Positions 1,119 through 43,154 of a stretch of 48,085 bases of DNA are shown piece by piece. The translations under genes and the position numbers were made by a program. Each line of letters starts with the position of its first letter. Positions within the stretch are counted from its first letter, which is position 1. The notes below the pieces were generated by a model. That model worked only from the letters and a program-made list of their open reading frames with translations, was not told the origin of the DNA and ran no database searches. Source of the stretch: Brevundimonas sp. (lineage in GTDB: Bacteria; Pseudomonadota; Alphaproteobacteria; Caulobacterales; Caulobacteraceae); NCBI RefSeq assembly GCF_024711105.1, contig NZ_JANJTL010000150.1:1-48085 (forward strand), written 5' to 3'.

Positions 1119-1453
1119 GCGGCGGGGAGTCGCAACAGACCCGCCGGTACGGAACCCGCATGGACCTTCAGGCCGGTGGGGTCGAACCTCTAGAAGGCAC
1201 CCGAGAACCTTTGATGGGGCACGCACTTGGAATATCGGGACCACTCATCGCCTCCCGTCAGGTCTGACGCCACGGGCGTGGAGGCAGCGGGTCCGCGACT
1301 CGCCGCTAGGCGCCAGGAGGTCAATGCCCTTGCGGCGCCAGGGGCGCTAGGAAACGGGCGGCAGTCGATCTTTGCGGACTAGGAAACGAAGGCGCCCATC
1401 GGCGCTCCGCCAATCCTCTTCACGGACGAGCCCCGGTCGTCTCGACGCGACCT
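1119..1453. other. Intergenic stretch, no gene seen
   Basis: About 335 bases between the DUF853 gene and the first FNR-type dyad. I see no open frame with convincing protein character, no tRNA and no copy of the tRNA-Thr 3' end that would mark an integration boundary. This is probably the left junction between core and accessory DNA. Confidence 0.5.
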
Positions 1454-1467
1454 TTGACGGAGGTCAA
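1454..1467. promoter_or_regulatory. FNR-family dyad TTGAC-GGAG-GTCAA
   Basis: A perfect 5+5 inverted repeat with a 4-base spacer, centred about 54 bases before the ATG of the TetR gene. The half-site matches the FNR/Dnr/NnrR class, and the same TTGAC...GTCAA form recurs at 24946 and 26941. Regulation of the TetR gene by the window's Crp/Fnr protein is an inference. Confidence 0.6.
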
Positions 1468-1514
1468 TGTGAGATTAGCTTGGGTCGGTCAGCGTGCTCG
1501 GGGGAGGAGCCGCG

Positions 1515-2066
1515 ATGGGCTGCAAACGCGAATTGCATGAACGGATGATCGACGCGGCCCGCGACCTCGCGCGCGGCGGGGGGGTTGAGGCCGTTACAGT
1601 GAGGGCGGTAGCAGGTCGCGTGGGCGTCAGTGTTGGCACCGTGATCAACATCTGCGGAACTATAGATGAGCTCGTGTCCGCGCTCGTCGAGCGGGACTTG
1701 ACCACGCGAGTCGAGATCATGCTGAGGGAACTCCGAAAGCCGCAGGGAACCGTGGCCGACCGGCTCAGGGACGCCTTGCTCGCGACCCTCGACCTGGACA
1801 TGGATTATCCGCGCTACAAACTTTACTTGATGGGGGCGAACGTGAATCCGCCCGCGGGAAACGCCGGAATAGGCAAACTGTTTACTCTGGTCGAACGGAT
1901 AGTCGTCGCTGCCAGAACCGACGAATTAGGCGCCTATGATGACTTGTTCCCCGCTATGCTCGGCTACTATAGCCAGCTGGTTAAAGGACTCGCGCTAGGC
2001 CAAATTGACCGCGCGGATGTAATTTCGCGGTTCAATGCGTTTGCAGTACGAATGACCTACGGATGA
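1515..2066 (+). CDS. TetR/AcrR-family transcriptional regulator
   Basis: A 183-residue protein with an N-terminal TetR helix-turn-helix: helix 1 near RMIDAARDLA, then VRAVAGRVGVSVGTVI at about residues 25-45. A variable ligand-binding half follows. I chose the ATG at 1515 because a strong GGGGGAGGAG ribosome-binding site lies just upstream; an earlier GTG at 1494 has none. Compared with the usual TetR HTH (...VSVGTLYYHF), the segment after the turn reads VGTVINICGTIDEL, which is slightly unusual. The ligand and target are unknown. An FNR-type dyad lies in its promoter, so it may be induced with the anaerobic genes. Its 3' end overlaps the convergent pentapeptide gene by 10 bases. Confidence 0.8.
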   Translation: MGCKRELHERMIDAARDLARGGGVEAVTVRAVAGRVGVSVGTVINICGTIDELVSALVERDLTTRVEIMLRELRKPQGTVADRLRDALLATLDLDMDYPRYKLYLMGANVNPPAGNAGIGKLFTLVERIVVAARTDELGAYDDLFPAMLGYYSQLVKGLALGQIDRADVISRFNAFAVRMTYG

Positions 2067-2701
2067 ATGGTGCGATATCCGTCAGGACATTCTTCCTTTG
2101 CACCTTGGAGCCTCTCTTGTCGGCTTCGCGCCATTGAGTCACCGAAGGTTGGCGAAGGAGGGGTGTGGTCTGAACCCATGTCGACCTTGGCGCCGTCGAA
2201 ACGGGTCTGAACCAGCTTGGAGCCGAAGAATGACACGGCGCAGCGCCCCTTGGCTGTCTCAATGGAGCGGAGATCCGATAGGTCGAAGCGGGCGTGGTCC
2301 AGCCTGCAGTCCTGGAACGAAGCGCCGCGCAGGTCGCTTCTGCTGAAGTCGGCATCGCGCAGATCAGATTCGTTAAACACAGCTCCGACCAGGACTGCGC
2401 CTGAAAAATCCATGCCCACACCGCAGATTCGCCGAAAGCTCGCGCCGGCCAAGGAACGACCAGTGAGCCCTTTGGGGAGCACCCGTAAGTCCTCATCGTC
2501 CAGCACCGCTGTGCGCCCCTTCGCGCCCCGGGAAATGACCCACTCCTCGGCCAGCGCGATCCGACGTTGAATGTCCTCTAGCCGCGAGTGCGCGGCCTCG
2601 TCAGGGTCCCGTACCGAACCCGTGAGATAGGCGGGGTCTATCGCACACCGAGAAAGATCGACGCGGGTGTGCGCCGTTGCGATATTACTACCGGTGAACA
2701 T
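2057..2701 (-). CDS. Pentapeptide-repeat protein
   Basis: A 214-residue frame whose middle part (about residues 75-150) has the A(D/N)LxX periodicity of pentapeptide repeats, for example GASFRRICGVGMDFSGAVL and SDLRDADFSRSDLRGASF. Such repeats fold as a right-handed quadrilateral beta-helix. Some family members protect DNA gyrase, but most have no known role, and nothing here identifies a partner. The C-terminal 60 residues lose the pattern. The start is uncertain: the ATG at 2701 lies inside a perfect palindrome (2694-2708) and has no clear ribosome-binding site. The gene converges on and overlaps the TetR gene by 10 bases. Confidence 0.6.
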   Translation of the reverse strand: MFTGSNIATAHTRVDLSRCAIDPAYLTGSVRDPDEAAHSRLEDIQRRIALAEEWVISRGAKGRTAVLDDEDLRVLPKGLTGRSLAGASFRRICGVGMDFSGAVLVGAVFNESDLRDADFSRSDLRGASFQDCRLDHARFDLSDLRSIETAKGRCAVSFFGSKLVQTRFDGAKVDMGSDHTPPSPTFGDSMARSRQERLQGAKEECPDGYRTIHP

Positions 2702-2708
2702 TGTTCAC
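2694..2708. promoter_or_regulatory. Palindrome GTGAACA-T-TGTTCAC (TGAAC-N3-GTTCA copy 1)
   Basis: A perfect 15-base palindrome spanning the apparent start codon of the pentapeptide gene. It contains the core TGAAC-N3-GTTCA, which recurs at 4961-4973 and 5416-5428 upstream of two other leftward genes. It is likely an operator, but the protein that binds it is unknown. Confidence 0.5.
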
Positions 2709-2821
2709 GCGTAAAGGCGCGATCGAGCCCAATGGAGTACATGGCCTTGAATGTCGTTGCTCAGCAACGCGGAATGGTTCCGGGAGGACTGTGGCCCCCT
2801 TCATCGCGAATAGGATGGGGG

Positions 2822-11095: not shown

Positions 11096-11692
11096 TCAAT
11101 ATTTCTCCGCCATGGCAATTATTCTTGCAGCCCTGTACATGTCTGCCTGCGAATTGATATTGAAGAAGGGGTCGATGCCATTTACCGGCCAACATACCTC
11201 GGCGGCTCCGACACTATCCGCAACGCCGTGAAGTGAGTACTTCGATCTAGAGACCATCGCGTCGATAGCGCCCAAAACCCCGGGTCTCCATAGACTGCAG
11301 ATCGGGTGACGCCGGCCGTCGCTGATGGCGGTCGCCACATCGAAGCCTTCAGTCAGGCTCCCTCCCAAGCGCCAGGGTAAATCGGCCGGCAAGAACGGCA
11401 TGTCGCAAGGTATCGTGAGCACAGCTTGGAGATCTAGCTCAGCTGCCCAGATGATCGCCGCCCGCAGGCCGGCGAGAGGGCCGGGGATATTCGGGTGATC
11501 GTTGAGCAGCCTGGCGCCTTTGACCACTTGGTCTCCAGTTCGCACTACGATGGCGGTGGGCGCCCCCCAAAACAAGGCTCGCTCCGTCGCCCGCTCCAAC
11601 AGGCTCATCCCTCCGAGCATCCTCGATGGCTTTGCACCCCCTATGCGCACACCTCGGCCACCAGCAAGGATTGCAGTGCCGAAGCGCATCAT
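11096..11692 (-). CDS. mobA: Molybdenum cofactor guanylyltransferase MobA
   Basis: A 198-residue nucleotidyltransferase that transfers GMP from GTP to Mo-molybdopterin, giving the bis-MGD cofactor that NarG needs. The nucleotide-binding signature LAGGRGVRIGGAKP is at residues 9-22, the Mg-binding aspartate is in CDMPFLP near residue 95, and the C-terminal DPFFNINS motif is near 175. The sequence is typical in length. Its first ATG overlaps the stop of the carbonic anhydrase gene (ATGATG/TGA), so it is translationally coupled to it. It is the last gene of the leftward train that starts with narK1. The placement fits, since nitrate reductase is the likely main user of MGD here. Confidence 0.93.
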   Translation of the reverse strand: MMRFGTAILAGGRGVRIGGAKPSRMLGGMSLLERATERALFWGAPTAIVVRTGDQVVKGARLLNDHPNIPGPLAGLRAAIIWAAELDLQAVLTIPCDMPFLPADLPWRLGGSLTEGFDVATAISDGRRHPICSLWRPGVLGAIDAMVSRSKYSLHGVADSVGAAEVCWPVNGIDPFFNINSQADMYRAARIIAMAEKY

Positions 11693-12351
11693 CCTGGGAA
11701 TTTCGGCTGTTGGCGTCGCCGGGAAGGCTGGGCCGATGAGAAGAGCACGTCGGCGTCGGAGCGGCCGCCGATTGTCGTTTCGAGATCCCGGAGCAGCCCA
11801 TCACGGATCGAGTAAACCCACCCGTGAAGCGCGAGCGGTTGCCTTCGGCGCCAGGCGTCGGTCACATAGGGGTTGCGTGCCAGCGAGCGCACCTGCGCGA
11901 GGACATTCAGTTCCGCTACCAGATTGGCGCGCATATCTGGGTCGTGGATTGCCTGCAACTCAGCGCGGTGATCCTCGCAGATCCGCTGCACTCGCTGAAG
12001 CCAGTGATCGAGAACCCCGTGGCGCGCGTTGTCCATCGCCGCGCGGATTCCTCCGCAACCGTAATGGCCACAGACGATGATATGCCGAACCTCGAGGGAC
12101 TCGATCGCGAACTGGAGCACCGCCATCAGATTGAGATCGCCGATCGGGGCCAGATTGGCGACGTTGCGATGGACGAACAGCTCGCCGGGCTGCATGCCCA
12201 CCACCTCGTTAGCGGGCACCCGGCTGTCGGAGCATCCGATCCACAAATACTCCGGACGCTGCCCCTCGCTCAGGCGCAGGAAGTAGTGGGGATCGTCATG
12301 CGTCTTGCCGGCCGCCCAACTCAGGTTGTTGTCCAGAAGCTTCGAAATCAT
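11689..12351 (-). CDS. Beta-class carbonic anhydrase
   Basis: A 220-residue protein that interconverts CO2 and bicarbonate. The zinc ligands and catalytic dyad are visible: C40 and D42 (with R44) in GCSDSR, and H96 and C99 in VCGHYGCGG. The length and motif spacing match bacterial Can enzymes. The frame continues upstream, but that part is the antisense-like text of the preceding gene; I use the ATG at 12351, which overlaps the stop of the hemerythrin gene (ATGA). It is coupled downstream to mobA by another overlap. Being inside the nar gene train suggests a need for bicarbonate/pH balance during anaerobic growth, but that role is inferred. Confidence 0.93.
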   Translation of the reverse strand: MISKLLDNNLSWAAGKTHDDPHYFLRLSEGQRPEYLWIGCSDSRVPANEVVGMQPGELFVHRNVANLAPIGDLNLMAVLQFAIESLEVRHIIVCGHYGCGGIRAAMDNARHGVLDHWLQRVQRICEDHRAELQAIHDPDMRANLVAELNVLAQVRSLARNPYVTDAWRRRQPLALHGWVYSIRDGLLRDLETTIGGRSDADVLFSSAQPSRRRQQPKFPG

Positions 12352-16005: not shown

Positions 16006-16017
16006 CGTTCGGCTCCT

Positions 16018-16725: not shown

Positions 16726-16726
16726 A

Positions 16727-23372: not shown

Positions 23373-23381
23373 CAGAGGGTC

Positions 23382-32031: not shown

Positions 32032-33029
32032 CGCCACTGTTTCCTGTACGCCCCGGTCGTCTCGCGCGCGCCCTCGGCCAGATCACCCAGTAGCGCCTCG
32101 AAAGCCGCGGGCGACTCGCCCTTGGCCAAGGCGTTTATGGCTGACCGGAACGCGGCGGCGACGCGCGCGACGTACGCCCGCCCTCTCTGGCGGCCCTCGA
32201 CCTTCACCGCCGTCACGCCGGCGCGGGCCAGGCCGTCCAGAAGCGTCATCGCGTTCAGGCTGACGGGGTCCTCGAACAGATATCCCGCCGGTCCGGCGGC
32301 GGCCTTGAAGCGACCCTTGCACAAGGTGGGATAGCCTCCCGGAGAGTCCGGCGACAGCCGGTCCACGGCGAGGCTGGCGAGGCGAACCGTCCGCTCGCCG
32401 GCGTCCTCGGAAAATGACACCGCTTCCGGCGGCGAACAGACGCCTGACAGATTAGGCGACCGCCCGGAAACGTAGGAGGAGAGCGCGCACCGTCCTTCGG
32501 CCATCACGCACAGGCCGCCGTAGACGAAGGCCTCGACCTCGACAGAGATTTCCCGCACGAGCGCGGCGATTTCTTCAACGCTCAGCACCCGGGGCAGAAC
32601 GACCCGCTGGACTCCGTATTCTCGGGCGTAGAACGCGATGGCCTCGGGCGTACCCGCCGCGGCCTGGACGGAAAGGTGCAGCCGGAGGTCTGGATGGGCG
32701 GCCTTCATGTGCGCCAGAACCGCCAGGTCCGCCGCGATCACGGCGTCGACGCCGGTCGTCGCCGCCGCATCGGCGGACGCCCGCCAGAGATCGGTGGCGT
32801 CCGCGCGCGCGAAGGTATTCAGCGCGAGGAGCACCTTGGCGTTTCGATCATGCGCCCAGGCGACCGCCTCCTTCAGTTCGGAAACGGAGAAGTTGAGGCC
32901 GGGAAAGTTGCGGGCGTTGGTCTCGTCCCTGAAGCCGCAATAGACGCTGTCGGCTCCGGCCAGGATCGCGGCTCGCAGCATCGCCGGCGAGCCGGCGGGG
33001 CAGACAAGCTCGGGAATGGTCGTCCTCAT
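32028..33029 (-). CDS. ubiU: UbiU, O2-independent ubiquinone hydroxylation, U32 family
   Basis: A 333-residue partner of UbiV. The [4Fe-4S] ligands C174, C181, C198 and C237 have the same spacing (7, 17, 39) as those of E. coli UbiU. The N-terminal block LVCPAGSPAMLRAAILAGAD and the motifs GYPTLCKGR and VKVEGRQRGRAYV are characteristic. UbiUV uses prephenate as oxygen donor for ring hydroxylation in anaerobiosis, according to work on the family. The ATG at 33029 overlaps the ubiT stop by four bases. Confidence 0.96.
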   Translation of the reverse strand: MRTTIPELVCPAGSPAMLRAAILAGADSVYCGFRDETNARNFPGLNFSVSELKEAVAWAHDRNAKVLLALNTFARADATDLWRASADAAATTGVDAVIAADLAVLAHMKAAHPDLRLHLSVQAAAGTPEAIAFYAREYGVQRVVLPRVLSVEEIAALVREISVEVEAFVYGGLCVMAEGRCALSSYVSGRSPNLSGVCSPPEAVSFSEDAGERTVRLASLAVDRLSPDSPGGYPTLCKGRFKAAAGPAGYLFEDPVSLNAMTLLDGLARAGVTAVKVEGRQRGRAYVARVAAAFRSAINALAKGESPAAFEALLGDLAEGARETTGAYRKQWR

Positions 33030-33553
33030 GGCCGATCGCCTCGCAGGAAGATTTTCCCCAATCGTTCAGCAAGCGGCCGAAGCCTCGTCGGGACGCCGAT
33101 CAGGTCCGCGAGGGTGACCTCGCAGGCTTCCAGCGCGTTATGGAGAGCCAGGACCGCGGCGGTGTCGCCTTCCACCTGAATCTGACGCTGAAAGAAGGCG
33201 CTGTCGGCATCGCCGCCGCCATCGAAGATCGCCAGCAGGGTCTTGAGCGGCCCCGATATGCGCGCCGTGTCGGCGGGAACCGGCGCGGCGGGCCGGACAA
33301 CCCGGACGGAGCCGGCAGTCCCGTTGGGAAGGATCTCGAACGCGATCGGCAGATCGGTGGGAGCGACCCGGACGGCGCCCTTGCGCACGGGGCCCAGCCG
33401 ATCGAAGGCGTCGGGCTTCGCGCGGGCGAGCCGCCGCAGGGACGCGGTCAACACCGCTTCGGCCGGTCCGCGGGTCTGGTAGAGCATTTCGGAGAGCGTT
33501 GAACTCGCCCGTCCATTCCGGCGGGCCTCGGCCAGCCCGCGCCTTATCCGCAT
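33026..33553 (-). CDS. ubiT: UbiT, SCP2-domain accessory factor for anaerobic ubiquinone synthesis
   Basis: A 175-residue SCP2-like lipid-binding protein, the anaerobic counterpart of UbiJ, needed for O2-independent ubiquinone synthesis. The diagnostic C-terminal segment is FFQRQIQVEGDTAAVLALHN, closely matching E. coli UbiT (174 residues). I choose the ATG at 33553, which lies inside the last codons of nrdJ (ten-base overlap) and gives the expected length. ATGs at 33568 and 33619 are possible. Coupling to nrdJ and ubiU indicates one transcript. Confidence 0.9.
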   Translation of the reverse strand: MRIRRGLAEARRNGRASSTLSEMLYQTRGPAEAVLTASLRRLARAKPDAFDRLGPVRKGAVRVAPTDLPIAFEILPNGTAGSVRVVRPAAPVPADTARISGPLKTLLAIFDGGGDADSAFFQRQIQVEGDTAAVLALHNALEACEVTLADLIGVPTRLRPLAERLGKIFLRGDRP

Positions 33554-35793
33554 CGCGAATAGCCGCATTCCGAGCAGCTGTCGCAGCCCTCGCGAGGGAG
33601 CAGGGTGGCGCGGCCGCATTGTGGGCATGCCGCCCCTCTCGGCGTGCTCGGTCCGCCCTGTGTCGCGACGTCCGATGGGGCGTCCTTGACGACCGCCGGC
33701 TCGTGAAGGTGTCGGGCGATGATCCCGCCGATGGCTGCCGGCAGGGAAGGCGTGTATTTGCCGTCGACCCAGGCGCCTCCCGCAGGGTCAAAGACGGCGC
33801 GCAGCTCATCGGCGACGAAACTCACGTCGCCGCCGCGCCTGAACACCGCCGAGATCATTCTCGTGAGCGCGACGGTCCAGGCGTAATGCGCCATGTTCTT
33901 CGAGTTGACGAAAATCTCGAACGGTCGGTTTCCAACCCCTGCATCATCGACATCGTTGATGGTCACGTAGACCGCGTGGGCGTCGAGCGGCCATTTGATC
34001 TTGTAGGTGGCGCCTTCGAGGCGCTCTGGTCGCGGCTCGAGGACCAGCTCCGGGACGGCGTTGTCGCCGGATTGAAGCCCATTCGAGTCAGGGGCGACGC
34101 TGAGCACCGAGCCTGTGATCGCATTCGGCCTGTAGGTGGTCAGTCCCTTGCAGCCCAGCCGGTAGCCTTCACGGTAGACGTCGGCGAACGCCTCGAAGGA
34201 GATATCCTCCGGGCAGTTGATGGTCTTGGAGATCGAACTGTCGACCAGGGCCTGGGCGGCGGCTTGCATCTTCAGATGGTCAGCGGGCTCCAGGGTCTGC
34301 GCGCTGACGAAAGCCTCGCCGGCGTCCTGAAGCGAGGCGTCATCGCCGTGGACGCGTCTCCACACCGACAGGGCGTAGTCCTCGACCCGCTCTTCCTTGC
34401 GCGACCCGTCGGGCTGCAAGACCTTGCGGGTATACTCGAAGGCGAACACGGGCTCGATGCCGGAGGACACATTTCCCGCCAGCAGCGATGTCGTTCCGGT
34501 CGGAGCTATCGAAGTCAGGCATCCATTCCGCAGGCCGTGCTTCTCGATCAAGGCGCGCGTTTCTCCATCGAGGTCCAGCAGATTGGGACGATCGAGCATG
34601 CACGGATCGTAGCTCGCGCACGGGCCCTTCTCCTGGGCCAGCCGCGCCGAGGCCCGGTAGGCTTCCCGCTTGATGACGCCGAGCCAGCGCTGGGTGAGTT
34701 TCACCGCCTCGTCCGAACCGTACCGGGCCCCGCAGAAGATCAGCGCGTCGGCGAGGCCGGTCACGCCCAGGCCGATCCGCCGCTTGGACCTGGCTTCGGC
34801 CTCCTGAACGGGGAGCGGAAAACGTGAAACGTCGATGACGTTATCGAGCATCCTCACGGCCGTGGCGGTCAGTTCCGCGAGCGCGGCCTCCTCCAGCGAT
34901 GCGCCCGGTTCAAAAGGCCGCTCAACAAGACGGGCGAGATTTAGCGAGCCAAGCAGGCAGGCGCCGTACGGCGGCAGCATCTGCTCGCCACACGGGTTTG
35001 ACGCGGCGATGACCTCGCAGTGCGCAAGATTGTTGTTGGCGTTGACCCGATCGACAAAGATCACGCCAGGCTCGGCCGCGTCGTAGGTGGCGCGCATCAG
35101 GCGCTCCCACAGATCCTTGGCGCGCACTGTGCGATAGATCTTTCCCACGTACAGAAGCGGCCAGTCATCATCGGCGTCCAGCGCCTTCATGAAGGCGTCG
35201 GTGACCAGAACCGAGATGTTGAAGTTGCGAAGCCGCCCTGGGTCGCGCTTGGCGTCGATGAACGCCTCGATGTCCGGATGATCTATCCGCAGGCAGCCCA
35301 TCATGGCGCCTCGCCGCTGACCGGCCGACATGATTGTCCGACACATGGCGTCCCAGACATCCATGAAGCTGAGCGGTCCCGAGGCTTCCGCACCAACGCC
35401 CTGGACAGGGGCGCCGCTTGGGCGGACCGTCGAGAAGTCCATGCCGACCCCGCCCCCGCGCTGCATGGTGACGGCGGCTTCCCGAAGATGCTCGAAAATG
35501 CCGTTCAGATCGTCGGGAACAGTGCCCATGACGAAGCAATTGAAGAGGGTGACGTTACGATCAGTGCCAGCGCCGGCGATGATCCGCCCCGCCGGCAGAA
35601 ATCGATGCCCATCGAGGGCCTTACGGAATCTGGCGCTCCAGCGGGCGCGATCCTTTGGCGCTTCAGCATGGGCAAGGGCGACTGCAATGCGGTCCCAAGT
35701 TTCCTCGACGCTGGCGTCTCCAGCGCCGGAGACCGGCTTGTAGCGGTATTTTCCATTCCAGATTTCGCCGGCCAGAGGGCTGTCGAACGCCAT
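33544..35793 (-). CDS. nrdJ: Adenosylcobalamin-dependent (class II) ribonucleotide reductase NrdJ
   Basis: A 749-residue enzyme that makes deoxyribonucleotides using adenosylcobalamin and works with or without O2. The active-site finger loop SNPCGEQMLPPYGACLLG holds N266, C268 and E270. C86 in LFNCFVMG is the likely N-terminal redox cysteine. The C-terminus is a Cys-rich zinc-binding module (CPQCGRATLLP ... CDSCSECGYSRCG), typical of NrdJ. The ATG at 35793 has AGGAGC upstream; an earlier frame start lacks one. An FNR-type box lies 100-113 bases upstream with an inverted repeat in the leader. It is the first gene of nrdJ-ubiTUV-chorismate mutase. Confidence 0.96.
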   Translation of the reverse strand: MAFDSPLAGEIWNGKYRYKPVSGAGDASVEETWDRIAVALAHAEAPKDRARWSARFRKALDGHRFLPAGRIIAGAGTDRNVTLFNCFVMGTVPDDLNGIFEHLREAAVTMQRGGGVGMDFSTVRPSGAPVQGVGAEASGPLSFMDVWDAMCRTIMSAGQRRGAMMGCLRIDHPDIEAFIDAKRDPGRLRNFNISVLVTDAFMKALDADDDWPLLYVGKIYRTVRAKDLWERLMRATYDAAEPGVIFVDRVNANNNLAHCEVIAASNPCGEQMLPPYGACLLGSLNLARLVERPFEPGASLEEAALAELTATAVRMLDNVIDVSRFPLPVQEAEARSKRRIGLGVTGLADALIFCGARYGSDEAVKLTQRWLGVIKREAYRASARLAQEKGPCASYDPCMLDRPNLLDLDGETRALIEKHGLRNGCLTSIAPTGTTSLLAGNVSSGIEPVFAFEYTRKVLQPDGSRKEERVEDYALSVWRRVHGDDASLQDAGEAFVSAQTLEPADHLKMQAAAQALVDSSISKTINCPEDISFEAFADVYREGYRLGCKGLTTYRPNAITGSVLSVAPDSNGLQSGDNAVPELVLEPRPERLEGATYKIKWPLDAHAVYVTINDVDDAGVGNRPFEIFVNSKNMAHYAWTVALTRMISAVFRRGGDVSFVADELRAVFDPAGGAWVDGKYTPSLPAAIGGIIARHLHEPAVVKDAPSDVATQGGPSTPRGAACPQCGRATLLPREGCDSCSECGYSRCG

Positions 35794-35892: not shown

Positions 35893-35906
35893 TTGATCGG
35901 CGTCAA
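35893..35906. promoter_or_regulatory. FNR box TTGAT-CGGC-GTCAA between nrdJ and the RIC-like hemerythrin gene
   Basis: A perfect FNR/FixK-type dyad in a divergent promoter region. For the rightward gene, -41.5 gives a start near 35941 with TACTGT at the -10 position (35929-35934). For nrdJ it gives a start near 35858, with no good -10. It may serve both genes. Confidence 0.75.
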
Positions 35907-35954: not shown

Positions 35955-36452
35955 ATGAGCGCTGCGGAACTCTTCGAAGACGCACGCTGGCGTGAGACGC
36001 CAGCGCTGATCGAGCTTGTCCTGGAACGCTTTCACGCTGTCCACCGGCAGGAGTTTCCCGAGGCGCAGAGGCTGGCCGAGGCAGTTGAGCGTCAGCACAC
36101 CACCCATGAAGCGTGCCCGATCGGCCTGCTCGATCTGCTCGCCCTCATCGCAGACGAACTTGAACATCATCAGCAGAAGGAAGAAGTTGTGCTGTTCCCC
36201 CTGATGCTCGCAGGCGGACACCCGATGATTTCAGGTCCGATCCAGCGCATGTTGATGGATCATCATGACCTCGAGCTTCAACTGGCGGAGATGATCCACC
36301 TGACCCAAGCCTTTCAGGCTCCGGTGGATGCCTGCTCCAAATGGCGTCATTTGTACAAAGCCTGCGCGAAGCTCCACGCCGATCTGAGCCTGCACATGAA
36401 GATAGAAAACGAGCTTCTGTTCCCTCGTTTCGCCCAAGAGAGGGCGGCCTAG
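35955..36452 (+). CDS. RIC/YtfE-like hemerythrin-domain protein
   Basis: A 165-residue four-helix protein with candidate di-iron ligands in ELVLERFHAVHRQEF, ADELEHHQQKEEVVLFPLM, LMDHHDLELQL and LSLHMKIENELLFPRF. These match the hemerythrin domain of RIC/YtfE/DnrN proteins, which repair Fe-S clusters damaged by NO or oxidants. The N-terminal ScdA-type domain of full-length RIC (about 220 residues) is absent, so this is a short form. The ATG at 35955 has GGGAG about 7 bases upstream. It shares an FNR-box region with divergent nrdJ, and its stop overlaps the convergent moeA by four bases. Confidence 0.85.
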   Translation: MSAAELFEDARWRETPALIELVLERFHAVHRQEFPEAQRLAEAVERQHTTHEACPIGLLDLLALIADELEHHQQKEEVVLFPLMLAGGHPMISGPIQRMLMDHHDLELQLAEMIHLTQAFQAPVDACSKWRHLYKACAKLHADLSLHMKIENELLFPRFAQERAA

Positions 36453-37654
36453 AAATCTAGGACCGAGACCTGGGCGCCTGCTTGCCTGGCGTCATCGCCG
36501 GGCGGACGCCGGATCAACACATCGGCCATTGCCAAGGCGCGCTGACTCGCGGAGTCCTGGTCTGAGAGCGAACGCACGCCTTCGGCTTCCACCTTGCCTC
36601 TCTCAAGAGTCTCTCGGTCTCCGCTGGCATCAAGATCGGCGGCGAGGACCATGTCGCGCCAGGCAAGTGCCGACTGCGGGGACCGGCCGGCAAGTCCCGC
36701 TACAAGAGGCGCCAGGAAAAGCCGTGCGGTTACCATCGCCGAGGTCGGATTGCCGGGCAGGCCGAGAACGAGGCGGTTGTTCACCCGCGCGAACCAGACG
36801 GGCTTGCCGGGCTTGATCGCCACCTTGGAGAACTGCATCTCCACATCGGCGCCTTCAAACATCTGCTTGGCGAAGTCCCGGTCTCCGACCGAGGCGCCGC
36901 CCGTCACGACCGTGAGATCCGCGCGTTCCAGGCAGCGCATGGCCGCGAGGCGAAGCGCGTCCGGATCATCCGCCAGCCGCAGGCGGCCCAGGACATCGCC
37001 GCCCCATTGAGCGGCGAGCGCCTCCACGCCCAGCGACAGGCTTTCGGGGATTTTGCCGGGCTGGTCCGCGGCTCGACCCGGCGCGACCAGTTCATCTCCT
37101 GTGCTCACAACGAGAATTGTGGGGCGCCGATAGACGGCGATCGTAGCCCGGTCCGCCGCGGCGGCGGTCACGATGGAGCGATGATCCAGGAGGCGTCCGG
37201 CGTCCAGCAACTGGGCGCCGGCCCGGAAATCGGCGCCCGCCGGGCGGATGTTGCGCCTGGCGCCGGCCGGTCCGGAGAAGACGGCCTCATCGCCAATGCG
37301 CTCGACGTCTTCCTGAATCACGACGCGATCAGCGCCGTCGGGCGTCGGCGCCCCGGTAAAGATTCTCGCGCATGTTCCGCGCTCCAAGGCGGCCGGCGTC
37401 TCCGATACCCCCGCGAAGATCTCCTGGCTCACAGCCAGGCGTGCGTTCGGACGCTGGATATCCGCGTCATGAACCGCGAACCCGTCCATGGCCGAAACGG
37501 CCGTTCTGGGCGAGTCGATGGCCGCCGTAAGGGGAAGGCCGAGCACCCTCCCAAAGGCGCTCTGAACGTCTATGGTCTCGATACCCAGCGGCTGCGCCTG
37601 CGCGGTGATCCGGCTGACGGCCTCGCCCAGGCTGATCAATCCTGCGTGCTGCAT
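36449..37654 (-). CDS. moeA: Molybdopterin molybdenumtransferase MoeA
   Basis: A 401-residue enzyme that inserts molybdate into adenylylated molybdopterin. Its visible landmarks are MDGFAVHDADIQ near residue 55, TGDELVAPG near 185, the active-site TGGASVGDRDF near 245 and GLPGNPTSAM near 300. The length is typical. I use the ATG at 37654, which begins only about 3 bases after a TATAAG -10 element's expected start point, so the mRNA may be leaderless. An imperfect FNR dyad lies about 42 bases upstream. It is monocistronic and convergent with the RIC-like gene. Confidence 0.95.
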   Translation of the reverse strand: MQHAGLISLGEAVSRITAQAQPLGIETIDVQSAFGRVLGLPLTAAIDSPRTAVSAMDGFAVHDADIQRPNARLAVSQEIFAGVSETPAALERGTCARIFTGAPTPDGADRVVIQEDVERIGDEAVFSGPAGARRNIRPAGADFRAGAQLLDAGRLLDHRSIVTAAAADRATIAVYRRPTILVVSTGDELVAPGRAADQPGKIPESLSLGVEALAAQWGGDVLGRLRLADDPDALRLAAMRCLERADLTVVTGGASVGDRDFAKQMFEGADVEMQFSKVAIKPGKPVWFARVNNRLVLGLPGNPTSAMVTARLFLAPLVAGLAGRSPQSALAWRDMVLAADLDASGDRETLERGKVEAEGVRSLSDQDSASQRALAMADVLIRRPPGDDARQAGAQVSVLDF

Positions 37655-37689: not shown

Positions 37690-37703
37690 TTGTCATTCAT
37701 CAA
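37690..37703 (-). promoter_or_regulatory. FNR-family dyad TTGTC-ATTC-ATCAA upstream of moeA
   Basis: A near-consensus dyad with one half perfect (ATCAA) and the other TTGTC, centred about 42 bases before the moeA start. The same TTGTC-N4-ATCAA form occurs at 41477. It could also act on the small rightward frame beginning near 37719. Confidence 0.55.
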
Positions 37704-37718: not shown

Positions 37719-37925
37719 CTGACACTGGGAGACGATCTGGGAGCTGCTACGGTTTTTCCGGGCGCCGACATCAACGACCCCGCGGGTTGGCGTTCCCGCC
37801 GGCTCTCGCTTCAACAAGCGCTTGCCGAGGTGAGGCGGCGACGGTTTCGGATCCCATTGGCCGTCGCCGCTCGCTTTGGCGAGTTTTGGGTCGAGACGCA
37901 ATCTGGCACAGCCGTGGCGTACTAA
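37719..37925 (+). CDS. Possible small unannotated or decayed gene
   Basis: A rightward frame of about 68 residues with no ATG; the first usable codon is CTG at 37719. The text is protein-like (LGDDLGAATVFPGADINDP ... PLAVAARFGEFWVETQSG) and its TAA at 37923-37925 overlaps the convergent moaC stop, an arrangement seen for other real pairs here. A nearby ATG at 37712 is in the wrong frame, so a frameshift is possible. I recognise no family. Confidence 0.3.
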   Translation: MTLGDDLGAATVFPGADINDPAGWRSRRLSLQQALAEVRRRRFRIPLAVAARFGEFWVETQSGTAVAY

Positions 37926-38398
37926 GCGCCGGGGCCCCAGGAACCTGACTTGCCGCCCTCTTTGGAAACGAGCCGAACGTCTCGAATGACCATCCCCCGG
38001 TCGATCGCCTTGAGCATGTCGTAGAGGGTCAGGCAGGCCACCGATACGGACGTGAGGGCCTCCATCTCGACCCCCGTCGCGCCGGTGAGGGAGACTTCGG
38101 CTCGAACCGAAAATCCCGGGCCGTCTGCCTGGGGCGTTACCTGCACGGCCACCTTCTCGAGCAGAAGCGGATGGCAAAGCGGAATAAGATCGGCTGTCCG
38201 TTTGGCCGCCATCACGCCCGCGAGTTCGGCGGTGGAGATGACCGCGCCTTTCGGCGTGGTTCCCGCCAGCACGGCCTCGAGCGTTTCGGACGCGCACGCA
38301 ACGAAGCCCTGAGCGACGGCGCGCCGCGGGGAGTGAGCCTTGCCGCCGACATCGACCATTCGCGCGCGGCCTTTGTCATCCAGGTGGGTCAGGGTCAT
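37922..38398 (-). CDS. moaC: Cyclic pyranopterin monophosphate synthase MoaC
   Basis: A 158-residue enzyme that converts 3',8-cyclo-GTP to cyclic pyranopterin monophosphate. The signatures are LIPLCHPLLLEKV near residue 70, GVEMEALTSVSVACLTLYDM near 110 and KAIDRGMVI near 130, including the catalytic Lys and Asp. The ATG at 38398 overlaps the moaB stop by four bases (ATGA). The final residues (KEGGKSGSW) are the usual MoaC end. It is the last gene of the decarboxylase-moaDEBC operon. Confidence 0.96.
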   Translation of the reverse strand: MTLTHLDDKGRARMVDVGGKAHSPRRAVAQGFVACASETLEAVLAGTTPKGAVISTAELAGVMAAKRTADLIPLCHPLLLEKVAVQVTPQADGPGFSVRAEVSLTGATGVEMEALTSVSVACLTLYDMLKAIDRGMVIRDVRLVSKEGGKSGSWGPGA

Positions 38399-38931
38399 GG
38401 ACAGATGCCTCGGTAGCGCGGGATCTGGCCGACGAGCGAGCACGGCCTGAACCGGCTGTCGAGTTCCTCGGCCAGCACCATGTCCCAGGCGTCCCTGCAG
38501 GCACCGGTCGAGCCGGGAACGCAGAACACGAAGGTGTCGTCAGCCTGGCCGGCGAAAGCTCTCGACTGAAGGGTCGCCACGCCGACGGTCTTCAGGCTCG
38601 CCATGTGGAACACGACCGAGAACCCGTCGAGCTCTCGGCGGAAGAGGGGCTTAAGGGCTTCCGGGGTGACGTCGCGTGGCGAAAAGCCGGTGCCGCCCGT
38701 CGTGAGGACCACATCCACGCCGGGATCGTCGACCCATGCCGAAACCTGGGACCGGATGTCGGTTACCTCGTCCTTGACGATGGCTCGCGCCGCCAGGACA
38801 TGGCCGGCCGTCTGAAGCCGCTGCGCCAGCAAGGCCCCCGACGTGTCCGTGCGCTCGTCGCGCGTATCCGACACCGTCAGTACGGCGATATTGAGGGGGT
38901 AGAACGGAAGGTCTTGTTGAATGCCGGCCAT
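38395..38931 (-). CDS. moaB: Molybdopterin adenylyltransferase-type protein MoaB
   Basis: A 178-residue MoaB/Mog-family protein that adenylylates molybdopterin before molybdate insertion by MoeA. The MPT-binding motifs are AVLTVSDTRDERTDTSG near the N-terminus, LTTGGTGFSPRDVTPEAL near 80-100 and CVPGSTGACRDAWD near 140. I use the ATG at 38931, one base after the moaE stop with GGTGGAG upstream; a GTG at 38940 is possible. Its stop overlaps moaC. No separate mog gene is present in the window. Confidence 0.94.
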   Translation of the reverse strand: MAGIQQDLPFYPLNIAVLTVSDTRDERTDTSGALLAQRLQTAGHVLAARAIVKDEVTDIRSQVSAWVDDPGVDVVLTTGGTGFSPRDVTPEALKPLFRRELDGFSVVFHMASLKTVGVATLQSRAFAGQADDTFVFCVPGSTGACRDAWDMVLAEELDSRFRPCSLVGQIPRYRGICP

Positions 38932-38932
38932 G

Positions 38933-39394
38933 CTAGTCACTCCACCGCGCCGCGTCGGCCAGGTCGCGAGGCGAGGGCTCGATCCACCGCTCGCCCCCCG
39001 GGCCGATCTCGCGCTTCCAGAACATCGCTTCGGTCTTGAGGCGGTCCATCAGGCAATCGGCGGCCAGGAACGCTTCCCTGCGGCGTGGCGCGGCGCAGGC
39101 GACGAAGACAATGGGCTCGCCCGGCGTCACTCTGCCCCCTCTGTGAACCACGGCCACATCGCTGACGCCAAAGCGTGAAAGCGCCTCCGCCGCGATGACG
39201 TCCAGGGATCGCTGCGTCATGACGGGATGCCATTGAAGCTCGAGCATATCGACGGGGGCTCCGCGGGAATCCGTATTTCGGGCGAGGCCGACGAACGACA
39301 CGACGGCGCCGTCATCGACGCGTCCTGCGATAAAGCGCTCGAGTTCCTTGGCTGGCGTGAACTGATCGAGCTCCAGCCGGGCTTCAACGGGCAA
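38933..39394 (-). CDS. moaE: Molybdopterin synthase catalytic subunit MoaE
   Basis: A 153-residue large subunit of molybdopterin synthase, which pairs with MoaD to add the dithiolene sulfurs. The visible motifs are VVSFVGLARNTDS near residue 30, AVVHRGGRVTPGEPIVFVAC near 85 and the substrate-binding lysines in DRLKTEAMFWKRE near 120. The start is a TTG at 39394, three bases after the moaD stop; no ATG precedes the conserved text. The length is typical. Confidence 0.95.
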   Translation of the reverse strand: MPVEARLELDQFTPAKELERFIAGRVDDGAVVSFVGLARNTDSRGAPVDMLELQWHPVMTQRSLDVIAAEALSRFGVSDVAVVHRGGRVTPGEPIVFVACAAPRRREAFLAADCLMDRLKTEAMFWKREIGPGGERWIEPSPRDLADAARWSD

Positions 39395-39397
39395 TGG

Positions 39398-39643
39398 TCA
39401 GCCCCCCGAGACAATCGAGAAGAAGCAGACTTCCTGCCCGTCCCTGACCTCGGCGTCATCGCGCACGACGCAGTTGTCGACGGCGGCCCGGATGGTCGGC
39501 CGTAACAGGCTCGCCGCCGCCTCGTCATCGTTAGCAAGCGCCTGGCGAAGGTCACCGACGGTGGTCACGGGCGACGCCAGCTCCATCAGGCGCTCCGACC
39601 CGAGCCGGCTTCCGATTTCGCCGTAGAAGGTGATTTTCAGCAT
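39398..39643 (-). CDS. moaD: Molybdopterin synthase sulfur carrier subunit MoaD
   Basis: An 81-residue ubiquitin-like protein. It starts MLKITFYGEIGSRLG and ends in the Gly-Gly tail (SIVSGG) that is thiocarboxylated to carry sulfur to MoaE. The activating enzyme MoeB is not in the window. Its ATG overlaps the end of the PLP decarboxylase gene by seven bases, so the two are translationally coupled. Confidence 0.95.
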   Translation of the reverse strand: MLKITFYGEIGSRLGSERLMELASPVTTVGDLRQALANDDEAAASLLRPTIRAAVDNCVVRDDAEVRDGQEVCFFSIVSGG

Positions 39644-41442
39644 TGGGGTGAGCCCGATCCATCATTCAGGGCGCCTTCGACCGCAGCCCGCAACTCGTCC
39701 GCAAATAGCCCCCCGACACGATCACGAACACTCGGCTGACACCAATAGGGGTTCATCACGACGCACCGTATGACGAGCATCTCGTCGGCATCCAGATGTC
39801 CTTTGTAGCCTTTGACATGTTCCGTGCGCAGCGCTTCCCAGCCCGCGGCGAAGGTCGTCTTCGACACCGAAAATCCCGGGGAAGACTGGAAATGCCGGAA
39901 AACGGCTTCCGTCAGGCGGTTCGACTCGCTCAGGGCGTCGCCCTCGCGCGCGATGGAGAAACACAGGATGTTCGAGTCGGCGGGTACGAACCGGGCTGCT
40001 GGCGCGACCCTTAGGATCAGGGCCCTGAGGAAGGCGGTGGCGTCCAGCGCGCCTTTCAGAAGGCTTCCCAGGCCGTTTTCATCGAATCCCAGGGTCTCGG
40101 CGGTCAACCAGGTGGCCGCCGCGCCGGCGGCCGATCGCGACCCCTCGAGGGTCGAGGCCCACTTGCCGGGCCCCAACTCGGGCCGATCCAGATAGGGCGC
40201 GTCGAAGGACGAGACGGCGTAGCGCTGCGCGTCCGCTGTCAGGAACGCACCACAGGCGTAAGGGACGTAACTGAGCTTGTGGGGATCGATCGTGATCGAG
40301 TCGGCCCGCTTTATGGCCTCGAGCGAAGACCTGGCCCGGGCTCCGATGCCCTCGTCGCCAGGCCTATGCACGAGCGTGCGGAAGAATCCGCCGTAGGCGG
40401 CGTCCACGTGCCGCCAGATCGACCAGCCTCGCGTTTCCGTCAGGGCATCGAGATGGTCAAAGATGGCGTCGATCGGATCAAGGGCTCCGGTCTCGGTGGT
40501 TCCCGCGACCGCGACCGCCGCCAGGATGGGCCTGCGCTCGCGATGGGCGCGCTGGATGGTTTGGATGAACTTGTCGATGTCCATCCTGCCCCCCTCATCG
40601 AGTTCGACGCTCCAGACGGCCTCGCGCCCGAGCCCGAAGACATCGGCCGCCTTTTCCCAAGAGTAGTGCCGATTGCCAGGAACCAGCAGCACGGGGCCGC
40701 GGTACGGCTGTCCGGATGCGATCGAAAGCCGCCGTATGATGTCGCAAGGGTTCGAGGCCAGCGCGCTGGCGGCGTCTATCGCTTCCTCATTGATATCGTA
40801 TCTGTCGCTCAGGTCCCTGAAGCGGGGCCAGCCCATGTGGGCCGCGTCGAAGAAGTCGAGTGAGGCGCCGGTCTGCTGGCTGATGCACAGGGCCAGCGCC
40901 AGCCATCGATCCATCCGATAGCGGGCTCGCCAGACCGCCTCAAAGTTGGCGATCGTGCCGCCTGAGGTGAAGTGACCTTCGACCTGCGCGCCGAAGCCCA
41001 TCATCTCGCCAAGATGCCGGATCGCCTCACGTTCGATCCGGCTGCCCACCCGGCTGGCTTCCGGCGAGGTGGTGTTCGGATTGTGCAGCATGGCCGCGAA
41101 CCAGCCCAGGATCGCCGGCAGCGAAAGATCCGCTTTCATGTGGGCCAGATACCGGGGCGTGAACGTGGGCGTTTCCTCGGTCAGCGCCTCCTGGAGAGCG
41201 TTGAGCCGCTCGACCAGCCGCAAGTCGTGCTGGGAGGTGAGACGCTCGTGGTTCTCGCTGGCGGGCGCTGAAAACCGATGATCCCGCCATTGGAACCAGT
41301 GATCCAGCATCGCTGACATCTGCTCGCGCAGACGCACGCCATTCTGGGAGTCCGCTCCCGGGAAGAAGGCGCCTGTCAGCGCCTCGGCGGAGTGCTCCCG
41401 CGACATCTCGACGGGTGAAGGGAGGGGAGTGTTGAGCGACAT
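39637..41442 (-). CDS. PLP-dependent aromatic-amino-acid/tyrosine-type decarboxylase
   Basis: A 601-residue group II PLP decarboxylase. The PLP lysine is K389 in SITIDPHKLSYVPYACG, the pyridine-nitrogen aspartate is D347 in HVDAAYGG, and the ring-stacking histidine is H260 in NRHYSWEKAADVFGLG. The text and size are closest to bacterial tyrosine decarboxylases (about 620 residues), but substrate cannot be read from sequence; tyrosine, phenylalanine, DOPA or glutamate are possible. Such enzymes consume a proton and make an amine. The ATG at 41442 lies 35 bases from an FNR-type dyad shared with hemN. It is the first gene of an operon with moaDEBC, an unusual partnership. Confidence 0.88.
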   Translation of the reverse strand: MSLNTPLPSPVEMSREHSAEALTGAFFPGADSQNGVRLREQMSAMLDHWFQWRDHRFSAPASENHERLTSQHDLRLVERLNALQEALTEETPTFTPRYLAHMKADLSLPAILGWFAAMLHNPNTTSPEASRVGSRIEREAIRHLGEMMGFGAQVEGHFTSGGTIANFEAVWRARYRMDRWLALALCISQQTGASLDFFDAAHMGWPRFRDLSDRYDINEEAIDAASALASNPCDIIRRLSIASGQPYRGPVLLVPGNRHYSWEKAADVFGLGREAVWSVELDEGGRMDIDKFIQTIQRAHRERRPILAAVAVAGTTETGALDPIDAIFDHLDALTETRGWSIWRHVDAAYGGFFRTLVHRPGDEGIGARARSSLEAIKRADSITIDPHKLSYVPYACGAFLTADAQRYAVSSFDAPYLDRPELGPGKWASTLEGSRSAAGAAATWLTAETLGFDENGLGSLLKGALDATAFLRALILRVAPAARFVPADSNILCFSIAREGDALSESNRLTEAVFRHFQSSPGFSVSKTTFAAGWEALRTEHVKGYKGHLDADEMLVIRCVVMNPYWCQPSVRDRVGGLFADELRAAVEGALNDGSGSPQC

Positions 41443-41476
41443 GCGCCCTACCTAACCGACGCGATCGGCGCCCCCC

Positions 41477-41490
41477 TTGTCATGGATCAA
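41477..41490. promoter_or_regulatory. FNR-family dyad TTGTC-ATGG-ATCAA between the decarboxylase and hemN
   Basis: A near-consensus dyad in the divergent region. Its centre lies 41.5 bases from the decarboxylase ATG, which would imply a leaderless mRNA, and 65.5 bases from the hemN ATG, giving a start near 41525. It has the same form as the moeA site. Confidence 0.55.
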
Positions 41491-41548
41491 GTCTCACGCA
41501 GAGCCCTGTCAATGTGAGCGGCGGCGGGAAGGATCATCTATTGCGGCC

Positions 41549-42940
41549 ATGCCGGAGCCAAGTTCGTCCAGACCCCGCCGCGCGTTGCCGCCAGCTTGGG
41601 CGGCTCATGCCGAGCGTCGTCTGCCGCGCTACACCAGCTATCCGCCCGCGACCGGCTTTCGCGCTATTGAGCCCACCGCCCTGGCAGCGCTGGAAGCGGA
41701 ACTCGAGCGTCCGCGACCGGACGAGCGACTTTCGGCCTACGTGCACGTCCCCTTCTGCCGACGCCTCTGCTGGTACTGTGGGTGCAGCACCAGCGTCTTC
41801 CACGACTACGATCGCGTGGAAAGCTATCTCGGCTGGCTCCGGCGCGAAGTTGACTTGTGGGCAGGACGCCTCGGTGAGCACGGGGGCTTATCCCACCTGC
41901 ACTTCGGCGGCGGGAGTCCCAATTCGCTGAGCGCTGGAGACTTTCGCAAGCTCCTACAGCACGTGCGCTGCTCGCTCGGAATCGGCCAGGGGGCCGAGGT
42001 GGCCATCGAGCTGGACCCGACCTACTGCACCGAGAGCTTCGCCGAAGCCTGTGGCGTCGCCGGTGTATCCCGCGCCAGTCTGGGCGCGCAGACGTTCGAT
42101 CCAGAGGTTCAGGCCCGCATCAACCGCCCGCAGCCGTATGAAGTAGTCCAAAACGCGATAGCGTCGCTGCGAGGTGCCGGTGTCTTGCGAGTCAACATCG
42201 ACCTCATGTACGGGTTGCCCGGACAGCGTGAGGAAAGCGTCGAGCAGTCTGCGCGCCAGGCGGCTGAGCTGAGGCCTGATCGGATAGCGGTATTCGGCTA
42301 CGCGCATGTGCCGTGGTTGAAGAAGCACCAGAGAATGATCGCGTCGAACGAGCTGCCCGATACCGCCGCGCGGTGGACGCAGGCAGAGGTTATCGACGAA
42401 ACGCTGTTTGCGGCCGGCTATGTCCGTATCGGGATGGACCACTACGCCTGGCCGAATGATCCTTTAGCTGTGGCCGCAAGCACCGGGGCGCTTCGGCGCA
42501 ATTTTCAAGGATACACCGACGACGGCGCATCGACTCTGCTGCCATTGGGGCCGTCGGCTATTGGTCAGGTGGTCACCGGCATGGTGCAGAACGCGCCAGC
42601 GCTCCGGCGTTGGCGAGAGGCAGTCTCGAAAGGAAATCTCCCGGTCCAGAGCTGGCTTGAGATCGGCCTGCAGGACCGCCTGCGCGCGGCCGTGATCGAG
42701 CAACTGATGTGTAGCTTAAATGTCGATGTCGGGGCGACTGCGCTGAAGTTCGGGCTTGCGCCAAGCACGCTCGACGAAGGATTGGCTGCTGCCCGCCGAC
42801 TCAGTGAGAATGGATTATGCAAAGTGTTCGCAAGACGGGTGGTGGTGCCTGAAGGCGCCCGGCGGCTGGTACGTGTCGTTGCGGCATGCTTCGACGGTGC
42901 GCTGGAGGCAGCAGCCCCGCGCTTCTCGCCAGCGATCTAG
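41549..42940 (+). CDS. hemN: Oxygen-independent coproporphyrinogen III oxidase HemN (radical SAM)
   Basis: A 463-residue radical-SAM enzyme of haem synthesis that works without O2. The cluster cysteines C70, C74 and C77, with C79 next, lie in CRRLCWYCGC, as in E. coli HemN. Other family blocks are PRYTSYPPAT, HLHFGGGSPN, SLGAQTFDPEVQARINR and DLMYGLPGQ. I use the ATG at 41549; the Shine-Dalgarno site is distant (GGAAGGA about 20 bases upstream). An FNR-type dyad lies 59-72 bases upstream. HemN can also supply haem b for NarI. It is divergent from the decarboxylase-moa operon and is the last accessory gene before the tRNA. Confidence 0.95.
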   Translation: MPEPSSSRPRRALPPAWAAHAERRLPRYTSYPPATGFRAIEPTALAALEAELERPRPDERLSAYVHVPFCRRLCWYCGCSTSVFHDYDRVESYLGWLRREVDLWAGRLGEHGGLSHLHFGGGSPNSLSAGDFRKLLQHVRCSLGIGQGAEVAIELDPTYCTESFAEACGVAGVSRASLGAQTFDPEVQARINRPQPYEVVQNAIASLRGAGVLRVNIDLMYGLPGQREESVEQSARQAAELRPDRIAVFGYAHVPWLKKHQRMIASNELPDTAARWTQAEVIDETLFAAGYVRIGMDHYAWPNDPLAVAASTGALRRNFQGYTDDGASTLLPLGPSAIGQVVTGMVQNAPALRRWREAVSKGNLPVQSWLEIGLQDRLRAAVIEQLMCSLNVDVGATALKFGLAPSTLDEGLAAARRLSENGLCKVFARRVVVPEGARRLVRVVAACFDGALEAAAPRFSPAI

Positions 42941-43107
42941 CCTCAGCAAGCTCGACCGACATATGAGCACTCAGCGTGCCATTCGGGTCTTCGCAAAGAT
43001 TCTGACCTGGCGATGTCGGCAGAGTCGGCGGTGGTGACGGCCGCCAGCTGAATGATTATAAAGCATTGCCCACTTGGTGTGTCCAATGTGCGTCAACGCC
43101 AATCCCG

Positions 43108-43121
43108 CCCCCAACAGGGGG
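43108..43121. terminator. Short G/C hairpin in the hemN to tRNA gap
   Basis: CCCCC-AACA-GGGGG, a 5-base stem with a 4-base loop, between hemN and tRNA-Thr. It has no T-run on either side and may be a weak terminator for either convergent transcript. The rest of 42941-43154 shows no gene and is more AT-rich than its surroundings. Confidence 0.25.
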
Positions 43122-43154
43122 TGCTACATAATCAAGGAGAAACAGTAGGATAGA

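Follow-up and report, generated by a model that had tools for sequence, protein, structure and literature searches.

A recurrent, modular cluster of nitrate-respiration and oxygen-independent biosynthesis genes in Brevundimonas, with a chorismate mutase gene beside ubiTUV

Gene content and FNR-type boxes

The window analyzed here is a 48,085-nucleotide stretch of Brevundimonas sp. (NCBI RefSeq assembly GCF_024711105.1, contig NZ_JANJTL010000150.1), which is contig 73 in a 2.69-Mb draft assembly made up of 181 contigs. Gene calling on the window resulted in 51 genes, which were scanned with family models (NCBIfam, TIGRFAM, and Pfam) scored against their cut-offs. Positions 11,096 to 42,940 form an accessory gene cluster of 32 kb, from mobA to hemN, in which narGHJI, a NarK-type transporter, a NifM-like peptidyl-prolyl isomerase (PPIase), and molybdenum cofactor (Moco) genes all lie within one block, and ubiTUV and an oxygen-independent ribonucleotide reductase (RNR) lie within that same nar block. 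The reading that we favor, at a probability of about 0.85, is that this cluster serves growth without oxygen by nitrate respiration, that it is modular and moves between species, and that its chorismate mutase most likely makes prephenate. An earlier note on this DNA had drawn an accessory region of 42 kb (1119..43154); the cluster is smaller, and the 10 kb on the left (1,119 to 11,000) are unrelated low-GC DNA that is not part of it. The genes named there (nar, moa, moeA, MobA-like, mod, NnrS, and two hemerythrins) were all recovered by family models, and the oxygen-independent routes ubiTUV, nrdJ, and hemN all scored above family cut-offs. Its list did not include FtrB, the ubiV-linked chorismate mutase, a pyridoxal phosphate (PLP)-dependent enzyme, the NifM-like PPIase, an outer-membrane-like protein, and a carbonic anhydrase. 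From left to right, the cluster comprises:

11096..11692, minus strand: mobA-like molybdenum cofactor guanylyltransferase, the left cluster end; TIGR02665 at 96 bits, below cut-off, passing only the broader PF12804; position conserved in relatives
11689..12351, minus strand: beta-type carbonic anhydrase; PF00484, with NF007756 just below cut-off; adjoins mobA in many relatives
12348..12956, minus strand: hemerythrin-domain protein 1; PF01814
12940..14169, minus strand: orf17, predicted outer-membrane protein; PF13372 exactly at cut-off; 40 invariant columns in a 36-sequence alignment
14171..15289, minus strand: NifM-like PpiC-type PPIase; PF00639, with TIGR02933 below cut-off
15286..21978, minus strand: narI, narJ, narH, and narG, respiratory nitrate reductase; TIGR00351, TIGR00684, TIGR01660, and TIGR01580, above cut-off
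21981..24725, minus strand: narK2 and narK1, nitrate/nitrite transporters; TIGR00886, below cut-off (narK2 slightly, narK1 clearly)
24992..25768, plus strand: ftrB, CRP/FNR-family regulator; NF006901 and NF050815, above cut-off
25773..26765, minus strand: moaA; TIGR02666, above cut-off
27011..29570, plus strand: modABC molybdate transporter; TIGR01256, TIGR02141, and TIGR02142, above cut-off
29561..30748, minus strand: nnrS; PF05940, 343 bits
30800..31132, minus strand: chorismate mutase of the CM_2/AroQ class, 110 amino acids, closing the ubiTUV run as its fourth gene; PF01817 at 63.7 bits, above cut-off
31129..33487, minus strand: ubiT-ubiU-ubiV, oxygen-independent ubiquinone hydroxylation; NF047962, NF047963, and NF047965, above cut-off
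33544..35793, minus strand: nrdJ, B12-dependent (class II) RNR; TIGR02504, above cut-off
35955..36452, plus strand: hemerythrin-domain protein 2, YtfE/RIC-like; PF01814, with TIGR03652 below cut-off
36449..37654, minus strand: moeA; passing PF03453, PF00994, and PF03454, below the NCBIfam equivalog cut-off
37922..39643, minus strand: moaC, moaB, moaE, and moaD; family models, MoaD and MoaE passing Pfam and below NCBIfam equivalog cut-offs
39637..41442, minus strand: PLP-dependent decarboxylase, tyrosine-decarboxylase-like; PF00282
41585..42940, plus strand: hemN, oxygen-independent coproporphyrinogen III oxidase, the right cluster end; TIGR00538, above cut-off

Read from right to left, the minus-strand genes are PLP decarboxylase-moaD-moaE-moaB-moaC-moeA; nrdJ-ubiT-ubiU-ubiV-chorismate mutase-nnrS; moaA; and narK1-narK2-narG-narH-narJ-narI-nifM-orf17-hemerythrin-carbonic anhydrase-mobA. 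The plus strand carries ftrB, modABC, the ytfE-like gene, and hemN. Elsewhere in the same genome (G000:C124:41506-42825) lies a gene for another HemN, distant at 43% identity.

The shared FNR-type sites that had been proposed from reading the letters were borne out by shuffling. Sites matching TTGATNNNNATCAA with at most one mismatch number 3 against 0.35 expected, a count reached in 0 of 100 shuffles, and with at most two mismatches there are 21 against 6.8 expected. Within the cluster, 8 of the 19 sites with at most two mismatches fall in the 1,366 intergenic of 31,845 bases, where 0.8 would be expected (binomial 6e-7), in a test whose gene calls shorten some starts and in which 4 of the 8 sites share one gap and so are not independent. 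The intergenic boxes are:

24793..24959: FNR-type boxes in the narK1/ftrB gap, perfect at 24793 and 24896, with 2 mismatches at 24852 and 24946
26941..26954: FNR-like box in the moaA/modA gap, 2 mismatches
35893..35906: FNR-type box in the gap between nrdJ and the divergent ytfE-like gene, 1 mismatch
37690..37703: FNR-like box upstream of moeA, in the moeA/moaC gap, 2 mismatches
41477..41490: FNR-like box in the PLP enzyme/hemN gap, 2 mismatches

As sequence matches, these boxes precede both nar and biosynthesis genes. No box of its own was found before ubiT, which lies 56 bases from nrdJ on the same strand. The cluster is probably controlled by FNR/FtrB, judging by what is known of these families.

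The same family knowledge suggests a physiology. NarK1 and NarK2 would move nitrate and nitrite, NarGHJI would oxidize ubiquinol with nitrate, ModABC together with the Moa proteins, MoeA, and MobA would provide the Moco that NarGHJI needs, and NnrS and the YtfE-like protein may act against nitrosative damage. UbiTUV, NrdJ, and HemN would substitute for the oxygen-dependent hydroxylation, ribonucleotide-reduction, and coproporphyrinogen steps, and the ubiV-linked chorismate mutase would most likely furnish prephenate as the oxygen donor for UbiUV-type hydroxylation. Across this otherwise aerobic genus, the capacity for nitrate breathing is kept, lost, and exchanged along with oxygen-independent substitutes for three biosynthetic steps.

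Recurrence, transfer, and surroundings of the cluster

A sample of 111 Brevundimonas genomes was searched at match thresholds of 1e-60 (narG, murA, and herA), 1e-30 (ubiU), and 1e-100 (nrdJ), with the narG/ubiU/nrdJ gene sets compiled by hand. This search resulted in 23 genomes with narG, 22 with ubiU, and 26 with nrdJ, and the hemN class, picked by more than 50% identity, comprised 30 genomes. Both narG and ubiU occur in 17 genomes, narG only in 6, ubiU only in 5, and neither in 83; of the 28 with at least one of the two, 26 also have nrdJ, versus 0 of the 83 others (Fisher 2e-23). Co-occurrence among the three genes gave Fisher p values of 4e-11 to 2e-23, which ignore relatedness among the 111 genomes. 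As the small subunit of class I RNR is kept in 13 of 13 genomes checked, NrdJ is an addition.

Gene order recurs as well. Regions around nar could be retrieved for 17 of the 22 other Brevundimonas nar genomes, and as far as the contigs reach, the order around narK-narI matches the window in 15 of them; genomes G037 and G173 carry a more distant nar type, with about 70% NarG identity. In 11 regions nrdJ lies between the moeA/ytfE side and nnrS, with ubiTUV and the mutase at the same place in 6, and four genomes (G231, G166, G213, and G216) have ubiTUV elsewhere in that region, outside the core block. A similar order was found in records of Phenylobacterium, Caulobacter, Asticcacaulis, and Hyphomonadaceae (80 named loci); public nar clusters of Brevundimonas and other Caulobacterales hold the same genes in the same or a similar order, with variation in their flanks and in whether ubiTUV-chorismate mutase, modABC, and carbonic anhydrase are there. 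Flanks differ in most of the species retrieved and are shared in the pairs G002/G214, G083/G194, G194/G223, and G231/G166. A protein of 135–136 amino acids with no Pfam match (L128:18134-18541) recurs near the clusters of G222, G002, G242, G037, and G173.

The package is therefore real, recurrent, and modular, and its genes are for the most part acquired or lost together. That these are separate anaerobic loci, together by chance in this one genome, is close to untenable: parts do lie on different contigs in G037, G173, G203, and G236, all drafts (narG and ubiU do so in the first three, where their distance is accordingly unproven), but the order shared by the genus's nar regions and the strong co-occurrence already refute it within the genus. 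The idea that the block is present or absent as a unit fares less well in its strict form. It agrees with the distribution of nrdJ, but the block is modular, and in the window's sister clade (G083, G194, and G223), which has nar, Moco genes, nrdJ, and hemN, the genomes gave no match to ubiU, so that the genes need not come as a package.

That Brevundimonas species pass on such a kit is documented by G231 and G166, which share 62,659 bp at 98.8% identity, up to the end of the G166 contig, as against 87.0% for the murA locus and 84.5% for herA. The shared stretch holds nar, Moco genes, ubiTUV, nrdJ, and hemN. The same block (G231:C1:2885929-2948584) also carries nrdD (class III RNR), an NrdG-like radical S-adenosylmethionine protein, an alternative oxidase, a multicopper oxidase, and nitrate/nitrite assimilation-type genes. 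Less strongly, transfer is also seen for G002, whose stretches in common with G214 (30.2 kb, 84.2% identity) and with G242 (24.0 kb, 85.8%) compare with murA loci at 71–79%. The nar-to-core ratio of amino acid differences is 0.03 for G166/G231, 0.16–0.17 for the G002 pairs, and 0.23–0.52 for nine other close pairs, and all five cluster alignments reject the topology of the core genes in approximately unbiased (AU) tests.

Several observations weigh against so much movement. Nodes of the core tree are weak (support 15–63), and the AU rejections may partly reflect tree errors. G242/G236, a pair from one clade, has a ratio of 0.14 that matches the low values of the G002 pairs and weakens the case for G002; a flank at 75–77% identity is common to G002 and G214 as well, so that the exchange may have taken place without a change of site; and placing G002 outside the G176/G181/G214/G242 group is unrejected (AU p 0.49 for nar, 0.062 for moa, and 0.078 for nrdJ). 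A nesting of G002 within the G176/G181/G214/G242/G236 group, unsupported by the AU tests, was dropped as an argument. The window itself groups with G083, G194, and G223 in both core and nar trees, and its copy looks mostly inherited with this sister clade, ubiTUV having been either lost there or gained in the window's lineage. Its hemerythrin 1 is 43–53% identical to those of the sister clade and 63–70% to most others.

Vertical inheritance with repeated loss, in which the ancestor of Caulobacterales already had the cluster and only loss and chromosomal rearrangement made it patchy, may hold for the window's own lineage, where it fits the trees, and the similar order in several Caulobacterales genera speaks for it too. 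As a general account it is unlikely: 62.7 kb at 98.8% between species whose core loci are 84.5–87% identical contradicts it for G231/G166 unless the assemblies are cross-contaminated, and the AU rejections run against it within the limits of the weak core tree. Of the transferable module that the earlier note envisaged, what stands is the co-occurrence, the recurring order, and transfer among relatives; neither a single unit at this site nor a recent transfer into this genome is supported.

The flanks were as that note had described:

9..1118: herA (HerA/DUF853), cut by the window start; PF05872
43155..43229: tRNA-Thr
43518..44804: murA

An intact 42-kb island integrated between the DUF853 gene and tRNA-Thr/murA is very unlikely, even though the cluster adjoins the 3' side of a tRNA gene, GC content is 62.4% in the left 10 kb and 65.2% in the cluster versus 68.6–71.6% in six other stretches of the genome, and the left arm encodes ParA, an excisionase-like helix-turn-helix protein, and a P4-type primase. 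Had the island inserted there, relatives should show the two flanks joined. With murA detected in 107 of the 111 genomes and herA in 100, and with pairs compiled by hand and chromosome lengths partly rounded, the two genes lie 405–2,313 kb apart in all 23 other genomes that carry both on one contig, 21 of them without narG, and none of these 23 has an empty site. In the sister species G083 and G223, the cluster and murA are some 90 kb apart or on different contigs. The 3' end of tRNA-Thr has no second copy in the window, whose left contig end is cut, even at up to 3 mismatches over 20 bases, and family scans found no integrase among called genes 2–43 between the flanks. The tRNA-Thr was therefore rejected as an integration site. 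In 11 of 11 regions the tRNA-Thr/murA/tRNA-Phe block is conserved, and the genes 3' of tRNA-Thr vary (one family in 7 of the 11, another in two sister species, and others in the rest), with no integrase recognized there by eye in ten relatives from the first 40 residues. The tRNA-Ser beside the G222 and G216 clusters showed no clear repeat, the one 16-base match, with 2 mismatches, being in G216. Absence of an att repeat and integrase also counts against mobility in our own reading, and what surrounds the cluster in the window does not look like an intact mobile element. Given flanks that are never joined and variable genes 3' of tRNA-Thr, the contig records either a rearrangement or a misassembly.

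The left arm has its own character. Positions 1119–11000 encode TetR, pentapeptide, EAL, MscL, response-regulator, ParA, excisionase-like helix-turn-helix, and P4-type primase proteins, and none of 12 left-arm proteins was matched over half its length in the relatives' loci compared, so these genes accompany the cluster in none of them. The ParA, excisionase-like, and P4-type primase-helicase genes (5020–10936) sit in low-GC DNA without an integrase, and the arm may be what is left of a phage satellite or plasmid after decay. Plasmid carriage of the cluster was considered and set aside: the best plasmid NarG is about 73% identical, and none of the 15 matches listed, out of 173, is from Caulobacterales.

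The chorismate mutase gene after ubiV

The start of the chorismate mutase gene overlaps the ubiV stop codon. The gene directly follows ubiV in all 12 Brevundimonas regions examined, from among the 22 ubiU genomes, and after ubiV in two more (G024 and G147). Among 19 genomes chosen by us for counting, each of the 10 with ubiTUV has 3 CM_2 genes above cut-off, always including one at the ubi locus, and each of the 9 without ubiU has 2 (Fisher 1e-5). Residues corresponding to R11, R28, K39, D48, and R51, which we take to be the numbering of the Escherichia coli chorismate mutase, are kept in 12 of 12 copies, and the Ser84 equivalent in 11 of 12.

A 2024 review, in the part available (PMC11574389), gives prephenate as the oxygen source in anaerobic ubiquinone synthesis; TrhP, another U32 protein, requires prephenate according to an accessible portion of its description (PMC6599085), and the available text of the 2023 UbiUVT paper (PMC10470549) still treats prephenate as a possibility. 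Since prephenate is both the expected product of the mutase and a reported oxygen source, the ubiV-linked mutase probably supplies prephenate to UbiUV, a role suggested by its family. The review cites Ferizhendi et al. 2024 for prephenate as the oxygen source. In the literature searched, no paper contained both ubiU and chorismate mutase, and UbiV and prephenate occur together in three. We hold it somewhat better than an even bet that Brevundimonas ubiTUV comes with a dedicated mutase that places prephenate next to UbiUV as oxygen donor, the whole being inherited and exchanged as one unit. If true, genetics would then show, without recourse to E. coli, that hydroxylation by UbiUV depends on how prephenate is supplied, and the linked gene offers a simple, testable handle on the source of the oxygen atom.

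A different function for the gene, namely a lyase (PchB-like or 4-hydroxybenzoate-forming) or a supply of aromatic amino acids, with no role as prephenate source, is a possibility that we take seriously without favoring it. All NCBIfam matches of the ubiV-linked mutase are below cut-off, the second best being TIGR01803, presumably the family that includes PchB-type lyases; chains of the isochorismate lyase PchB are among the closest solved structures; and at the position equivalent to E. coli E52, 10 of 12 copies have Ile or Val and 2 keep the residue. Set against this are the conserved catalytic positions, including the Ser84 equivalent, and the two other CM_2 genes in every genome checked; moreover, relatives that lack the gene presumably still produce ubiquinone aerobically, which makes a role as the 4-hydroxybenzoate source unlikely. 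Two further points tell against a dedicated prephenate supply. The 12 copies are interrelated, those of G231 and G166 being near-identical, and among best-scoring loci outside the genus, searched with a model built from the Brevundimonas copies, no copy was found after ubiV in 23 of 24 loci from other genera of the family and in 27 of 27 class-level loci, one locus offering only about 375 bases of downstream sequence. As the mutase is mostly undetected after ubiV outside the genus, UbiUV has no general need of a neighboring mutase gene.

Known systems and conserved companions

The cluster type is known in outline from Sphingopyxis, and the new element is the ubiTUV-linked chorismate mutase. 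In the available parts of the reports on Sphingopyxis granuli TFA (PMC4741004, PMC6472365, and PMC7713065), an anaerobic region (SGRAN_3844-3862), the counterpart of the window's cluster, is described in a strain that grows anaerobically on nitrate, with ftrB divergent from a narUGHJI-nifM-moaADEBC-moeA operon followed by mobA and ubiTUV. By consecutive locus numbers, the FNR-type regulator gene fixK and nrdZ come after ubiTUV, and FNR boxes before narU, ubiT, and nrdZ accompany strong induction without oxygen. Unlike in the window, moa lies downstream of nar and hemN2 is elsewhere (SGRAN_2458), and those parts of the reports name neither a chorismate mutase nor modABC. They find nar in TFA alone among the Sphingopyxis strains compared and suggest its acquisition, without, in those portions, showing transfer between species. 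Among the papers listed by literature searches, none was an account of the cluster in Brevundimonas or Caulobacterales, and the main text of a 2025 Caulobacterales survey (PMC12700997) uses "nitrate" and "anaerobic" zero times.

Two other systems share features with the window. The nitrate respiration conjugative element (NCE) of Thermus thermophilus, in the sections available (PMC5748679, PMC6282519, and PMC7694296), likewise combines nitrate respiration with its own regulators in a block that supports anaerobic growth. As described, it is mobile, a named conjugative element, and comes from an unrelated bacterium with an unrelated gene set. It is not known to carry a ubiquinone, ribonucleotide, or haem module. 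The UbiT, UbiU, and UbiV proteins of the window are members of the families of the E. coli pathway, which is under FNR control there according to the accessible text (PMC6747719 and PMC10470549), and the window differs in the extra chorismate mutase gene that follows and in the placement inside a nar cluster.

Two companions of the cluster are conserved and unexplained, the PLP decarboxylase and the outer-membrane-like protein orf17. The closest solved chains to the former are aromatic amino acid and other decarboxylases. Its gene adjoins moaD in most relatives or lies near ubiTUV (G216, G213, and G037); a partnership with ubiTUV was dropped, as it is also present in clusters without ubiTUV (G083, G194, G223, and G181). 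Searches of solved structures with the orf17 sequence and profile gave only weak, implausible matches. The protein, 409 amino acids long, has an N-terminus resembling a signal sequence and matches Alginate_exp at the borderline; it is possibly a nitrate/nitrite outer-membrane channel, and 45 distinct homologues were found in loci around nar genes, mainly in Caulobacterales, Hyphomonadaceae, and Sphingomonadales.

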